Shown: one piece after another, positions 49,611-56,521 of the stretch
Numbering within the stretch: position 1 is the first letter of the stretch
Layout: each line of letters starts with the position of its first letter
From: Burkholderiales bacterium
Lineage (GTDB): Bacteria > Pseudomonadota > Gammaproteobacteria > Burkholderiales > Burkholderiaceae
Assembly (NCBI GenBank): GCA_026225235.1
Contig: JAMFSK010000041.1
Coordinates: 1-64,000 of the forward strand
DNA: 64,000 nucleotides
Direction of reading: 5' to 3'
Position numbers and translations under genes: made by a program
The notes under the pieces: generated by a model
Seen by the model: the letters and a program-made list of their open reading frames with translations, nothing else
The model's database searches: none
Told to the model about the DNA's origin: nothing

Positions 49611-50209
49611 GTTTCGCGATAGATGAAGCGGGCTGGCTGTCGTCGATTACCGGGATGACTCATCGCCCCTCGCCGAATTTTGATGCACGCCCGGAGGGCA
49701 TCGCGCCCTCTCTGCTGGTGATCCACAACATCAGCCTGCCGCCCGGGCAGTTTGAGGGCAGCGCGATCGCTGACTTCTTCCAGAACCGCCTCGACTGGGA
49801 CGCCCATCCGTTCTATGAACAGATTCGCGACGTGCGCGTGTCTGCGCATTTCCTGATTCGCCGCGATGGCACGATCGACCAGTTTGTTTCGTGCAATGAA
49901 CGGGCATGGCATGCGGGACGCTCCAATTTTTTCGGGCGAGAGCGGTGCAACGACTTTTCGATCGGCATCGAGCTCGAAGGGAGTGACACGCAGCCGTTCG
50001 ACGAGGCACAATACGCGCCCCTCGCGGCGCTCGCCTCGTGCCTGGTCACGCACTATGGACTGAACGCGCTAGCGGGTCATTCGGACATTGCTCCGGGACG
50101 CAAGACGGACCCGGGCCCTTGCTTCGATTGGCGTCGACTGCAGCGCGAAATGGGTCTGGCGCCTGAGTACTTTCCCTATCTCTCTGCTGACTTTTTTGGC
50201 ACGCGATAA
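49607..50209 (+). CDS. ampD: 1,6-anhydro-N-acetylmuramyl-L-alanine amidase AmpD
   Basis: AmpD cleaves the stem peptide from anhydro-muropeptides in cell wall recycling in the cytoplasm and so keeps ampC-type beta-lactamases off. With TTG 49607 it has 200 residues. The zinc ligands are His40 in LLVIHNISLP, the His of ERAWHAGRS, and the Asp of GRKTDPGPCF; AGHSDIAPG is also typical. I chose the TTG because it overlaps the previous stop as TTGA and gives the usual N-terminus (SFAIDEAGWL); the open frame begins earlier at 49493. No strong ribosome binding site is seen. Confidence 0.9.
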   Translation: MSFAIDEAGWLSSITGMTHRPSPNFDARPEGIAPSLLVIHNISLPPGQFEGSAIADFFQNRLDWDAHPFYEQIRDVRVSAHFLIRRDGTIDQFVSCNERAWHAGRSNFFGRERCNDFSIGIELEGSDTQPFDEAQYAPLAALASCLVTHYGLNALAGHSDIAPGRKTDPGPCFDWRRLQREMGLAPEYFPYLSADFFGTR

Positions 50210-50281: not shown

Positions 50282-50309
50282 TTGTGGTCGCCCTCGGTCA
50301 CACTATACT
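50282..50309 (+). promoter_or_regulatory. Probable nrdA promoter
   Basis: TTGTGG (50282-50287) and TATACT (50304-50309), 16 bp apart, form a fair sigma-70 promoter. The -10 box lies inside the first NrdR box, which fits repression by NrdR. Transcription would begin near 50316. Confidence 0.7.
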
Positions 50310-50346
50310 TGGTGTGCGTTGTCGGGAAGGGCACTAGATATTGTGT
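50300..50346 (+). promoter_or_regulatory. Pair of NrdR boxes
   Basis: Two 16-bp sites resemble the NrdR consensus acacwatatatwgtgt: ACACTATACTTGGTGT at 50300-50315 (13 of 16) and GCACTAGATATTGTGT at 50331-50346 (14 of 16). Their starts are 31 bp apart, the three-turn spacing known for NrdR pairs in front of ribonucleotide reductase genes. NrdR represses nrd genes when (d)ATP is high. Binding is inferred. Confidence 0.88.
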
Positions 50347-50383
50347 TTACTGCATAAGTCCATGCCCCGTTTCAGAGCGTTCG

Positions 50384-50419
50384 AAGCACCGAATAAGATC
50401 ACTCTTACTCGGTGCTTTT
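50384..50419 (+). terminator. Leader hairpin with T-run upstream of nrdA
   Basis: aagcaccga (50384-50392) pairs with tcggtgctt (50409-50417); an inner stem taaga (50394-50398) pairs with tctta (50403-50407) over the loop tcac. Four T end the structure. It lies about 70-100 bases downstream of the predicted transcription start and 284 bases before nrdA. It looks like a terminator in the leader, so it could be an attenuator or the end of a short separate RNA. Confidence 0.75.
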
Positions 50420-50702
50420 CGCTCCACCGACGCCGCGCCGGCGCTCTCGCGTGACGTAGTCGACGAGCACCGGTGTCTATCCGGATCGAGGTTTGTCGTT
50501 GTTGTACTTGTTGACTGAGAAAGTCGCTTCGCAGGAGGCGGCCGAGCGTGAGCACAGTGCTTCAAGAACGACCGGCCGGTGCATGCACGATGCACCGCAT
50601 CGGTACCACGGCGCTCACGGCCATGGGGATGGTGATCGGCTTCTTCCATTCGTCAAACGCGGCACGACCGCACACTGAATACAGACCAGGAGCTTTGCAC
50701 AT
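50420..50702. other. Remaining nrdA leader
   Basis: About 280 bases between the leader hairpin and nrdA. It contains short overlapping frames (one of 43 codons, 50590-50721, overlaps the nrdA start) with no recognisable product. The nrdA ribosome binding site (caggagc, about 50687-50693) lies at the end. Confidence 0.5.
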
Positions 50703-53700
50703 ATGCAGACCGAAAACGTGACGACGACGTCGCCAGGCCAGTTGCTCGCCGAAGGGGCAGGCCGCCTCGGCAACGCGCCGGGTTCACAGCCGCTTGCACC
50801 TTCGTCGGCCTATGCCGACTACAAGGTGATTCGCCGCAATGGCTCGGTAGTCGCTTTCGAACCGTCGAAGATTGCGATCGCTGTCACGAAGGCATTCCTC
50901 GCCGTGAATGGCGGGCAGGGCGCTGCGTCTGCACGTGTGCGCGAACTGGTCGAGCAGATGACGCAAAGCGTCGTGCGCGCGTTGTTGCGCAGCCGACCGA
51001 ATGGCGGCACCTTCCATATTGAAGATATCCAGGATCAGGTCGAACTCGCCCTGATGCGCGAGGGCGAGCACAACGTCGCGCGCGCCTACGTGCTGTATCG
51101 CGAGAAGCGGTCGCAAGAACGTGCGCACGACACGGAAGTGCTGCCGACCAGTGGCCTGAACGTGCTCGACAACGGTGTCATGCGCCCGCTCGACATGAGT
51201 GCGCTCAAGTCGCTGATCGCCTCGGCCTGCGAAAACCTCGGCGAAGCCGTAAAGCCGGAGCCGATCGTCGCTGAGACGGTGAAGAATCTGTACGACGGCG
51301 TGCCCATCACGCAAGTCTACGATTCGGCGATCCTGGCCTCGCGCACGATGATCGAAAAGGAGCCGGCTTACAGCCAGGCGACCGCGCGCATTCTGCTGCA
51401 CACGATCCGCCGTGAAATCCTCGGCGAGGAAGTGATGCCCGCCGAGATGACGACCCGCTACGCGGAATACTTCCCGCAATTCATCAAGCGCGGCATCGAA
51501 GCTGAACTGCTCGACGAGAAGCTCGCGCAATTCGACCTGAAGCGCATGGGCGCCGCGCTCGACGCGAACCGCGACCTGCAATTCGGCTACCTCGGCCTGC
51601 AGACCCTGTACGACCGCTACTTCCTGCATCACGACGGCGCACGCATCGAACTGCCGCAGGCATTCTTCATGCGTGTGTCGATGGGCCTCGCGCTCAACGA
51701 GATCGACCGCGAAGCGCGCGCGATCGAGTTCTACAACGTGCTGTCGAGCTTCGACTTCATGAGCTCGACGCCGACACTGTTCAACTCGGGCACGCGCCGT
51801 TCGCAACTCTCCTCGTGCTACCTGACGACGATCGCCGACGATCTCGACGGCATCTATGAAGGTCTCAAGGAAAACGCACTGCTCTCAAAATTCGCCGGCG
51901 GCCTGGGTAACGACTGGACGCGCGTGCGCGCGCTCGGTTCGCACATCAAGGGCACCAATGGCAAGTCGCAAGGCGTCGTGCCGTTCCTGAAGGTGGTCAA
52001 CGACACCGCCGTTGCCGTCAATCAGGGTGGCAAGCGCAAGGGCGCGGTCTGCGCCTATCTCGAAACGTGGCACCTCGACATCGAGGAATTCCTCGAGCTG
52101 CGCAAGAACACGGGCGACGATCGCCGTCGCACGCACGACATGAATACCGCGAACTGGATTCCGGACTTGTTCATGAAGCGCGTCCACGAAAACGGCGAAT
52201 GGACACTCTTCTCACCGTCCAACTGCCCGGACCTGCACGACAAGTTTGGCGCCGAGTTCGAAAAAGCCTACGTCGGCTATGAAGAGAAGGTCGCACGCGG
52301 CGAGCTCAAGCTGTTCCGCAAGGTTCCGGCGGCGCAACTCTGGCGCAAGATGCTGGGCATGCTGTTCGAAACCGGCCATCCGTGGATCACATTCAAGGAT
52401 CCGTGCAATGTGCGTTCGCCGCAACAGCACGTCGGCGTGGTCCACTCGTCGAACCTGTGTACGGAAATCACGCTGAACACGAGCGACCAGGAAATCGCGG
52501 TCTGCAACCTCGGCTCGGTCAACCTCGTGGCCCACATGAAGTCGCAGGGCGATGGGCTGGTGCTCGATCACGACAAGCTCAAGAAGACGATTTCGGTGGC
52601 GATGCGCATGCTCGACAACGTGATCGACATCAATTACTACGCGGTCGCCAAGGCACGTAACTCGAACCTCAAGCACCGTCCGGTGGGCCTCGGCATCATG
52701 GGCTTCCAGGACACACTGCATCTGCTGCGCACGCCGTACGCGTCGATGGACGCGGTCGAGTTTGCCGATCGCTCGATGGAAGCGGTCTGCTACTACGCTT
52801 ACTGGGCGTCGACCGAACTCTCCGCCGAGCGCGGCCGCTACTCGAGCTACCGCGGCTCGCTGTGGGATCGCGGCATCCTCCCGCAGGACACCGTCAAGCT
52901 GCTGGCCGACGCACGCGGCGGCTACGTCGAAGTCGACGCATCGAGCACGCTCGACTGGGACACGTTGCGCGGACGCATCGCCGAGCACGGCATGCGCAAC
53001 TCGAACTGCGTGGCCATCGCGCCGACCGCGACGATCTCGAACATCATCGGCGTCTCGGCCTGCATCGAACCGACGTATCAAAACCTCTACGTGAAGTCGA
53101 ACCTGTCGGGCGAGTTCACGGTCGTCAACGAGTACCTAGTGCGTGACCTCAAGGCGCGCGGTCTGTGGGACGAGGTCATGGTGGCCGACCTCAAGTACTT
53201 CGACGGCACGCTCTCGCGCATCGACCGGATCCCGGCCGACTTGCGCAGCATTTATGCGACCGCCTTCGAAGTCGATGCGAAGTGGCTCGTCGAAGCCGCC
53301 TCGCGTCGCCAGAAGTGGATCGACCAGGCTCAGTCGCTCAACATCTATATGGCAGGCGCGTCAGGTAAAAAACTCGACGAGGTCTACAAACTGGCCTGGT
53401 TGCGTGGCCTGAAGACAACGTATTACCTGCGCACGATGTCGGCGACTCACGTCGAGAAGTCGACCTCCGCACACGGCGCGCTGAACTCGGTGCCGAGCGG
53501 TGGCACCTCGAACAGCGGTAACGGTGGCGCGGGTGGCGCGGGTGGCGTGGGTGGTGGCGGTATCGGCCTCGGTGGTTCGGGTGCGATCACCCCCGTCGGC
53601 GGTGGTGTGCTCGCGAGCGCTTCGGCGAGCGCGGCGCCGGCAGGCGCACCGCTTGCGACAGCAGTTGCAACGACTGCTGCATCGAGCCTGGTCTCGATGA

Positions 53701-53798
53701 GCGCAAGCGCGGTGATCAGCGATGACGATATCGCCGGCCCGGTGTGCATGATGCGCCCCGGCGATCCGGGTTTTGACGAGTGCGAAGCCTGCCAGTGA
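50703..53798 (+). CDS. nrdA: Class Ia ribonucleoside-diphosphate reductase, alpha subunit
   Basis: NrdA reduces ribonucleoside diphosphates to deoxy forms, with NrdB supplying the radical. The 1031-residue protein has an N-terminal ATP-cone (about residues 40-130, YKVIRRNGSVVAFEPSKIAI), the allosteric activity site. Active-site residues are Cys372 (SQLSSCYL), Cys586 and Glu588 (NLCTEIT), and Cys601 (VCNLGSVN); Cys1027-x2-Cys1030 in DECEACQ is the C-terminal thiol shuttle. Residues about 924-1007, just before the shuttle, are an unusual Gly- then Ala/Ser-rich stretch. It is under the predicted NrdR control at 50300-50346. Confidence 0.96.
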   Translation: MQTENVTTTSPGQLLAEGAGRLGNAPGSQPLAPSSAYADYKVIRRNGSVVAFEPSKIAIAVTKAFLAVNGGQGAASARVRELVEQMTQSVVRALLRSRPNGGTFHIEDIQDQVELALMREGEHNVARAYVLYREKRSQERAHDTEVLPTSGLNVLDNGVMRPLDMSALKSLIASACENLGEAVKPEPIVAETVKNLYDGVPITQVYDSAILASRTMIEKEPAYSQATARILLHTIRREILGEEVMPAEMTTRYAEYFPQFIKRGIEAELLDEKLAQFDLKRMGAALDANRDLQFGYLGLQTLYDRYFLHHDGARIELPQAFFMRVSMGLALNEIDREARAIEFYNVLSSFDFMSSTPTLFNSGTRRSQLSSCYLTTIADDLDGIYEGLKENALLSKFAGGLGNDWTRVRALGSHIKGTNGKSQGVVPFLKVVNDTAVAVNQGGKRKGAVCAYLETWHLDIEEFLELRKNTGDDRRRTHDMNTANWIPDLFMKRVHENGEWTLFSPSNCPDLHDKFGAEFEKAYVGYEEKVARGELKLFRKVPAAQLWRKMLGMLFETGHPWITFKDPCNVRSPQQHVGVVHSSNLCTEITLNTSDQEIAVCNLGSVNLVAHMKSQGDGLVLDHDKLKKTISVAMRMLDNVIDINYYAVAKARNSNLKHRPVGLGIMGFQDTLHLLRTPYASMDAVEFADRSMEAVCYYAYWASTELSAERGRYSSYRGSLWDRGILPQDTVKLLADARGGYVEVDASSTLDWDTLRGRIAEHGMRNSNCVAIAPTATISNIIGVSACIEPTYQNLYVKSNLSGEFTVVNEYLVRDLKARGLWDEVMVADLKYFDGTLSRIDRIPADLRSIYATAFEVDAKWLVEAASRRQKWIDQAQSLNIYMAGASGKKLDEVYKLAWLRGLKTTYYLRTMSATHVEKSTSAHGALNSVPSGGTSNSGNGGAGGAGGVGGGGIGLGGSGAITPVGGGVLASASASAAPAGAPLATAVATTAASSLVSMSASAVISDDDIAGPVCMMRPGDPGFDECEACQ

Positions 53799-54219: not shown

Positions 54220-55449
54220 ATGCTCAACTGGGATGACGAGAACACGGCCGTAACTCCCGCGAGCGGCGAGCAAGCAAAAGCATTGCACGCAAGCGCAGGA
54301 ACAGCCATCGAAACTCGCACTGCATCGACGCCGATCGCAGCTCAGCACGCTTCCCTTCCGCAAGACATCTTCGTGCGCGACATCGCGACGCCTCCCGTAT
54401 CTGACTCGACTGCCGATGTGCCTCCTGTGACTGCCCGCGTGAACGTGGCGGACAAGCGCATCATCAACGGCAAGACCGACGTCAACCAGCTCGTGCCGTT
54501 CAAGTACAAGTGGGCGTGGGAGAAATACTTGGCCGGCTGCGCGAATCACTGGATGCCGCAGGAAGTGAACATGTCGCGTGACATCGCGCTCTGGAAAGAC
54601 CCGAACGGTCTGACCGAAGATGAGCGTCGCCTGGTCAAGCGCAACCTCGGCTTCTTCGTGACAGCGGATTCGCTGGCCGCGAACAACATCGTGCTGGGTA
54701 CCTATCGCCACATCACGGCGCCCGAATGCCGCCAGTTTCTGCTGCGCCAGGCATTCGAGGAAGCGATCCACACGCACGCATACCAATATATTGTCGAGTC
54801 GCTCGGACTCGACGAGAGCGAAATCTTCAACGCGTATCACGAAGTCGATTCGATCCGCGCCAAAGACGAGTTCCTGATCCCGTTTATCACGGTGCTGACT
54901 GATCCGTCGTTCAAGACCGGCACGCCGGAGACCGACCAGCAACTGCTCAAGTCGCTGATCGTGTTTGCCTGCATCATGGAAGGCCTGTTTTTCTACGTCG
55001 GCTTTACGCAGATTCTTGCGCTTGGCCGGCAGAACAAGATGACCGGCGCAGCGGAACAATATCAATACATCCTGCGCGATGAGTCGATGCACTGCAACTT
55101 TGGCATCGACCTGATCAATCAGATCAAGCTTGAAGAACCGCATCTCTGGACGCCCGCGTTTCGCGCTGAGCTCAACGTGATATTCCAGGAAGCGGTGGAA
55201 CTCGAATACCGTTACGCCGAAGATACGATGCCGCGCGGAGTGCTGGGCCTGAACGCTTCGATGTTCAAGAGCTATCTGCGCTTTATCGCCAATCGCCGCT
55301 GTCAGCAGATCGGTCTCGAAGCACTCTTCCCGAACGAGGAAAACCCGTTCCCCTGGATGAGCGAGATGATCGACCTGAAGAAGGAACGTAATTTCTTCGA
55401 GACGCGAGTGATCGAATATCAGACGGGCGGCGCGCTGAACTGGGAATAA
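54220..55449 (+). CDS. nrdB: Class Ia ribonucleoside-diphosphate reductase, beta subunit
   Basis: NrdB holds the di-iron tyrosyl radical cofactor. It has 409 residues. The radical site is recognisable: Glu181-x2-His184 with Tyr188 ([10 protein letters not shown]) and Glu288-x2-His291 ([13 protein letters not shown]); the C-terminus TGGALNWE carries the usual docking end for NrdA. The first 80 or so residues ([20 protein letters not shown] and on) are low-complexity and variable before [20 protein letters not shown]. tgaaggtgaa supplies the ribosome binding site. It is the partner of nrdA upstream. Confidence 0.97.
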
Positions 55450-55909: not shown

Positions 55910-56521
55910 ATGGCTACCGCCAAGAAAGCTGCTGCGAAGAAAGCCCCGGCAAAGAAAGTTGCCGTGAAGAAAGTCGCAGCCAAGAAGGTTGCAGTGAAGA
56001 AAGTAGCAGTGAAGAAGGTTGCTGCGAAGAAAGTTGCGGTGAAGAAGGTTGCAGCGAAGAAGGTTGCGACGAAGAAGGTTGCAGCCAAGAAAGTAGCGGC
56101 GAAGAAGGTCGCGCCGGCGAAGAAGGTTGCAGCGAAGAAGGTTGCGACCAAGAAAGTCGCCGCCAAGAAAGTGGCAGCGAAGAAGGTCGTAGCGAAGAAG
56201 GCCGCACCGGCCAAGAAGGCTGCTGCCAAGAAGGCGCCGGCGAAGAAGGCCGCTGCCAAGAAGGCGCCTGCTAAGAAGGCTGCTGCCAAAAAGGCCGCGC
56301 CTGCTAAGAAGGCTGCGCCTGCCAAGAAGGCTGCCGCCAAGAAAGCGCCTGCTGCCAAGAAGGCGCCTGCGAAGAAGGCCGCTGCGAAAAAGGCGGCGGC
56401 TCCTGCCGCCGCTGCCCCTGCAGCGTCTTCCTCGGTCGCACCTGCAGCACCGGCCAACGCGGTGAAGACCGCGCTGAACCCGGCAGCAGCATGGCCGTTC
56501 CCGACCGGCAGCCGTCCTTAA
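55910..56521 (+). CDS. Histone H1-like Ala/Lys-repeat DNA-binding protein
   Basis: The 203-residue protein is almost only Ala, Lys, Val and Pro. Residues about 3-100 repeat units such as VAAKK and VAVKK; about 100-165 repeat AAAKK and APAKK. An Ala/Ser/Pro-rich tail follows, ending AWPFPTGSRP. It resembles the eukaryotic-like histone H1 C-termini found in Burkholderia, Bordetella (BpH1) and AlgP-type proteins, which bind DNA non-specifically and compact or regulate the chromosome. The DNA repeats (15-18 bp, gcagcgaagaaggtt-like) make copy-number change between strains likely. A strong ribosome binding site and its own terminator frame it. Confidence 0.93.
   Translation: MATAKKAAAKKAPAKKVAVKKVAAKKVAVKKVAVKKVAAKKVAVKKVAAKKVATKKVAAKKVAAKKVAPAKKVAAKKVATKKVAAKKVAAKKVVAKKAAPAKKAAAKKAPAKKAAAKKAPAKKAAAKKAAPAKKAAPAKKAAAKKAPAAKKAPAKKAAAKKAAAPAAAAPAASSSVAPAAPANAVKTALNPAAAWPFPTGSRP

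Follow-up and report, generated by a model that had tools for sequence, protein, structure and literature searches.

Ribonucleotide reductase sets the supply of dNTPs, and NrdR has been established elsewhere as a repressor that acts when dNTPs are sufficient. For Escherichia coli, passages of PMC12176259 describe two 16-bp NrdR boxes with 15 bp between them, which overlap the polymerase site, and passages of PMC8203912 place nrdAB of the same species under the control of DnaA, with DnaA boxes near the nrd promoter. Leaders have been brought into the picture as well. In Propionibacterium acnes, an NrdR box is accompanied by a cobalamin riboswitch, and much of the transcription of nrdAB stops ahead of its first gene (parts of PMC3848588), while 82 short 5'UTRs, resulting from processing or attenuation, were reported for Burkholderia cenocepacia (parts of PMC5688073, Sass 2017). 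Literature searches on nrdA together with a Burkholderia small RNA, terminator or 5-UTR found no paper, and the same is true of DnaA boxes and nrdA in Paraburkholderia. In addition, a leader of the type presented here is not described in the titles and abstracts listed for NrdR, for RNR attenuation and riboswitches or for Burkholderia start sites, and a word search for "nrd" gave no hit in the main texts of PMC4603805, PMC5688073, PMC7377471, PMC6321483 and PMC7563307.

The leader analysed here precedes nrdA in the window, that is, the whole stretch of 64,000 nucleotides under study. The genus is Pararobbsia, and three congeners were compared, namely the window species, its sister G037 and P. 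silviterrae (L002). The full comparison comprised 82 nrdA leaders (the window, 80 named loci and G037). The features of the locus are as follows.

Ending at 50209, co-oriented with nrdA: ampD.
50282..50309, + strand: sigma-70-type promoter, identified comparatively, with -35 TTGTGG at 50282-50287, a 16-bp spacer and -10 TATACT at 50304-50309.
50300..50315, + strand: NrdR box 1, ACACTATACTTGGTGT, overlapping the -10.
50331..50346, + strand: NrdR box 2, GCACTAGATATTGTGT, 31 bp from box 1.
50375..50424, + strand: hairpin A, consisting of a base stem, a main hairpin and a U-run, from folding and comparison with G037.
50435..50476, + strand: hairpin B, from folding, the probable counterpart of the GCGGCGCC/GGCGCCGC hairpin of related genera, without a U-run.
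50688..50692, + strand: Shine-Dalgarno AGGAG inside the conserved AGGAGCTTTGCA block, whose exact 12-mer occurs in 61 of the 82 leaders.
50703..53798, + strand: nrdA, ribonucleoside-diphosphate reductase alpha subunit (NCBIfam PRK07207.1, 1800 bits).
54220-55449: nrdB.

Between the end of ampD at 50209 and the start of nrdA lie 493 bases. The window also carries, at 55910-56521, an open reading frame for a lysine/alanine repeat protein, the composition of which is presumably like that of histone H1.

The initial annotation had placed a promoter over the first of two NrdR boxes 31 bp apart, and the comparison bears this out, with the -10 lying inside box 1 and both boxes being canonical (31 bp start to start, 15-bp gap). 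The -10 TATACT is positionally kept in 80 of the 82 leaders and a -35 beginning with TTG is present in 63/82, the fit of the window's TTGTGG to the consensus being limited to these three bases. The output of a generic promoter scan of the window did not include the nrdA promoter. Transcription would be expected to start near 50316-50317. A box pair is found upstream of nrdA in all 81 leaders scored (the window and the 80 named loci), the best pair reaching 23-27 of 32 matches, which are to be read as scores with the 31-bp spacing imposed and no control run. Among 20 further stretches from 16 genera by label, some of them identical to stretches of the named loci, 16 have a pair with at least 20/32 matches. 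The nrdR gene itself is present once in each of the three Pararobbsia genomes (196-199 bits). Since the boxes and the -10 recur comparatively and each congener genome has nrdR, control of the window nrdA by NrdR is well supported and appears ordinary.

All three Pararobbsia genomes also encode a second RNR large-chain protein (PF02867; L162 1966-5169, on contig C105 of G000), and the best NrdR box pair near this second gene has 17/32 matches. The second RNR was considered as a reason for shutting off nrdA and was rejected: at least two PF02867 proteins are encoded in 26 of 60 family genomes, the three congeners included, and Pararobbsia is therefore not set apart by it.

Downstream of box 2, at approximately 67-103 nt of the inferred transcript, the leader is predicted to fold into hairpin A. 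Its main part (50383-50418) has an outer stem of 10 pairs and an inner stem of five, separated by a 1x1 loop and capped by a 4-nt loop, and it stands on a base stem in which GAGCG (50375-50379) pairs with CGCTC (50420-50424). The U-run consists of four U (50416-50419) followed by CG; in the minimum-energy fold, three of the four have partners in the 5' arm. Positions 50380-50424 fold at -19.7 kcal/mol (z -6.6), a stability reached by none of 200 shuffles, and the whole stretch 50319-50424 has a z of -5.9. The two-tier hairpin with a T-run some 70-100 bases into the transcript, as first noted, is thus a stable fold, and its distance to nrdA, given as nearly 300 bases, measures 283 bases from the end of the U-run at 50419 to the ATG at 50703. 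Because forbidding hairpin A in the window leader costs 17.6 kcal/mol, the model indicates that it should form by default. A repeated or mobile element as its origin was rejected, as the 433-base leader has a single match in its own genome (83.8% complete). Further upstream, a 5' hairpin (window 50317-50368) is predicted in the three congeners, with UGCCC (50363-50367) as a possible pairing partner of the box 2 RNA.

In the sister species G037, 16 of the 20 pairs of the window fold are unchanged, two carry two-sided compensatory changes and two at the edge no longer form. When six changes were placed at random, at least 18 pairs survived in 8,292 of 200,000 draws, and at least two two-sided compensatory pairs arose in 1,145 of 200,000. 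This count is based on the complete set of 20 window pairs and replaces one made on the 18 pairs shared by both species (none broken, 684/200,000); the revision leaves the standing of both leading readings unmoved, because the count bears on both alike. The U-run is kept as well, with U4 in the window and U5 in G037. These sequence changes suggest that hairpin A has probably been kept as an RNA structure in the two species that provide the evidence, and that its conservation between them is moderately beyond chance. G037 has an alternative fold, lacking hairpin A, that is within 2.2 kcal/mol, and its interval between box 2 and hairpin A matches the window at 16 of 27 bases. In P. silviterrae, hairpin A is weak (-12.3, UUU), with 19 of 51 bases matching the window. 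When a 171-base query was compared with 299 family genomes, only G037 aligned along most of the query among the matches listed, the others being short pieces, and no equivalent of the U-run hairpin was seen in the leaders of other genera compared, except for a weaker one in L003 (Trinickia). Judged from these comparisons, hairpin A is lineage-specific and not a family-wide attenuator. Across Burkholderiaceae, for which a covariation analysis had been suggested, the conserved element is a different hairpin, B.

As a terminator, hairpin A is borderline. In a ranking of sites on both strands of the window that combined hairpin energy with tail score, it came 29th of 122, with a tail score of 2.58 versus 3.2-5.0 for eight of the ten top-ranked sites, and it is absent from the output of a separate terminator scan of the window. 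With cut-offs set just below its own values (dG <= -16, tail >= 2.5), comparable hairpins arise in 15 of 400 dinucleotide-shuffled window leaders and in 13 of 400 for G037. A terminator-like hairpin starting in the first ~170 nt (dG <= -12, tail >= 2.5) is found in 3/3 congeners versus 1/79 other leaders (L003), a count in which the distance and the -12 were chosen after inspection of the list and the three congeners are related species, not independent cases; L074, at -11.7, falls narrowly below the -12 cut-off. In P. silviterrae, the stronger terminator-like site is hairpin B, followed by UUUUC (-19.2, tail 3.13). Some tailed hairpin at dG <= -10 is present in 37 of the 82 leaders, and weaker hairpins with a tail, lying far closer to nrdA, occur in many of the other leaders. 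From the hairpin to nrdA, no promoter-like site was found in the window scan, which also overlooked the main promoter. Taken as predictions, these scores place hairpin A only marginally beyond chance as a terminator.

Our preferred reading, which we put forward tentatively, is that hairpin A is a lineage-specific, constitutive, partial intrinsic terminator that would release a leader RNA of about 100 nt. Transcription of nrdA would start just past NrdR box 1 and would presumably be repressed by NrdR at sufficient dNTPs. Once transcribed, the nascent leader would fold into the stable two-tier hairpin with its four-U tail, upon which a share of the transcripts would stop near 50419, giving a leader RNA of ~103 nt, while the remainder would read through to nrdA. 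Hairpin A would, in that case, lower the ceiling of the promoter and sense no signal. The RNA of about 100 bases that had been suggested is possible and would be expected from any termination at this place, with no indication of a function of its own.

Hairpin B, a GC-rich two-tier hairpin absent from the initial annotation, is the element that related genera share. It is made up of GCGGCGCC, a 4-bp inner stem and GGCGCCGC, the inner stem being mostly GCTC/GAGC, with GTTC/GAAC and ACTC/GAGT also occurring. With at most two mismatches in total, its arms are found in 68 of the 82 leaders versus 0/82 reversed controls; a looser search (2+2 mismatches) had matched 30/82 reversed controls and was replaced. 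The 14 leaders without a match are those of the window and both congeners, L003 (Trinickia), L034 (Paraburkholderia), six Burkholderia (L040, L043, L045-L047 and L057), Candidatus Burkholderia pumila (L060), and L080 and L081 (Pandoraea and unplaced Burkholderiales). The three Pararobbsia leaders fold a similar hairpin at the matching place, which we take, on the strength of predicted folds, as diverged counterparts of hairpin B. We abandoned the idea that hairpin A is itself the family hairpin, its outer stem having become A-U, as hairpin B lies downstream of it in all three congeners. What follows hairpin B in Paraburkholderia and Caballeronia is AAGCATTCC, GGCTTTCC or similar, without a U-run. 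No Rfam match to hairpin B was found in 20 loci, and the hairpin is visible by eye in three of the 20 further stretches (g8b, g10 and g14). In a MAFFT alignment (A1) of 50 of the 80 named loci, chosen for a clear hairpin B, the inner stem was misplaced in Caballeronia, and for that reason the pair counts were made by register. Among the 68 leaders, the changes found in the outer stem are G-U in 27 cells (six kinds), A-C in four cells (four kinds), G-G or A-G in 11 cells, and one two-sided change, which, as sequence changes, would not be decisive as an argument for RNA over DNA.

Many Paraburkholderia leaders carry DnaA boxes, which by eye lie in the interval from NrdR box 2 to hairpin B. The 9-mers TTATNCACA occur 47 times in total versus 0.56 expected from shuffles, and the 24 leaders (of 82) that have them all belong to the set of 36 with a Paraburkholderia label. 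The window leader has no DnaA box. In one locus (L033), seven copies of the DnaA-box 8-mer are present, by eye in steps of ~12 bp. Moreover, in Burkholderia and Paraburkholderia loci such as L015 and L042, within ~100 bases upstream of nrdA, a hairpin CGCTNGCGCA...GCGCAGCG is followed by TTCGTTTTAATC, and the end motif of this nrdA-proximal hairpin is matched in 31 of the 82 leaders.

Appreciable weight must be given to the possibility that the leader hairpin is structural, causing little or no termination and serving to shield or process a long untranslated leader, as hairpin B of related genera, which lacks U, would do if it acts as RNA. Such a role would be in keeping with the GC-rich GCGGCGCC/GGCGCCGC hairpin of the 68 leaders, which has no U-run in Paraburkholderia and Caballeronia, with the three U inside the 3' arm of hairpin A, beyond which the base stem closes, and with the weak tail. 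However, hairpin A is an additional hairpin upstream of B, a U-run is present in both species that keep it, and protection requires no U-run. We give partial termination a slight edge over a role that is structural only. If short transcripts are released, they might also act in trans as a small RNA of ~100 nt under NrdR control, for which the length, the two-hairpin shape and the z of -5.9 are suitable, and 5'UTR-derived short RNAs are reported for B. cenocepacia in parts of PMC5688073. This is improbable, since the 16/27 matches to G037 between box 2 and hairpin A leave no conserved seed there, and only G037 matches along most of the 171-base query among the matches listed from the 299 genomes. 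That the hairpin mainly blocks read-through from ampD is less probable still: ampD and nrdA are co-oriented and no site between 50209 and the promoter is among the best 40 of the 122, but nrdA transcripts would be cut too, and the other leaders compared manage without hairpin A.

The initial annotation had proposed attenuation as a regulated second layer, in which an antiterminator, a leader peptide, a ligand or a protein would set the read-through. The 5' fold of box 2 RNA with 50363-50367, predicted ahead of the hairpin in all three congeners, and the alternative fold of G037 within 2.2 kcal/mol would be compatible with such a switch, whereas loss of the hairpin in the window costs 17.6 kcal/mol and no competing antiterminator fold was found there, the near alternative being confined to G037. 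As for a leader peptide, a 30-codon ATG frame of the window starts with GTG and stops after seven codons in G037, the two sharing few residues (KS-PRFRA) ahead of the G037 stop, and no frame starting within the first 130 nt is kept in sequence and length across the leaders of the three congeners. With Rfam 15, only a tRNA reaches the gathering score in the window, the leader has only two matches, both far below threshold, and none is above threshold in the 20 nrdA loci. Considering also that, apart from a weaker one in L003, no equivalent U-run hairpin was seen in the compared leaders of other genera, we regard a regulated attenuator as hardly probable. The boxes, the -10 and the hairpin are confirmed, control by NrdR is well supported, and regulated attenuation is unsupported.

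Should hairpin A terminate transcription, as in our preferred reading, repression by NrdR would have a constant brake behind it on the transcript, and nrdA would exemplify how close relatives equip one leader with differing regulatory elements. Should it not, the conserved hairpin B would still be a feature of the nrdA mRNA in need of explanation, in a large group with symbionts and opportunists among its members. A wider proposal, which we consider unlikely, is that nrdA leaders of Burkholderia sensu lato share an undescribed, structure-conserved hairpin B past the NrdR site, embellished per lineage by DnaA arrays in many Paraburkholderia and by the terminator-like hairpin A in Pararobbsia, and that dNTP supply would be under a second layer of control made up of these elements, linked to RNA or to replication and lying beneath NrdR. 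Hairpin A is a lineage-specific variant of modest importance, unless a working leader system made of hairpin B and the DnaA arrays comes to light.

Compared with the short 5'UTRs of B. cenocepacia, the shared idea is that leaders can yield short RNAs, although nrd is unmentioned in the main text of that report. As in the DnaA-controlled nrdAB of E. coli, boxes near the nrd promoter are present in 24 of 36 loci with a Paraburkholderia label, but there they lie downstream of NrdR box 2, and the window has none. The NrdR promoter of E. coli nrdAB is resembled by the window in box length, in the 15-bp gap, in the overlap with the polymerase site and in the presence of nrdR in the genome, and no difference is visible in the promoter part, whereas the window leader has hairpins downstream. 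The nrdAB leader of P. acnes is alike in having an NrdR box at the promoter; the early ending of transcription is reported there and proposed here, and a riboswitch is annotated there, whereas the window has no Rfam riboswitch match and no switch was found in it. Because parts of PMC3848588 report NrdR together with early nrdAB termination, which is attributed there to the cobalamin riboswitch, a combination of this kind has a precedent.
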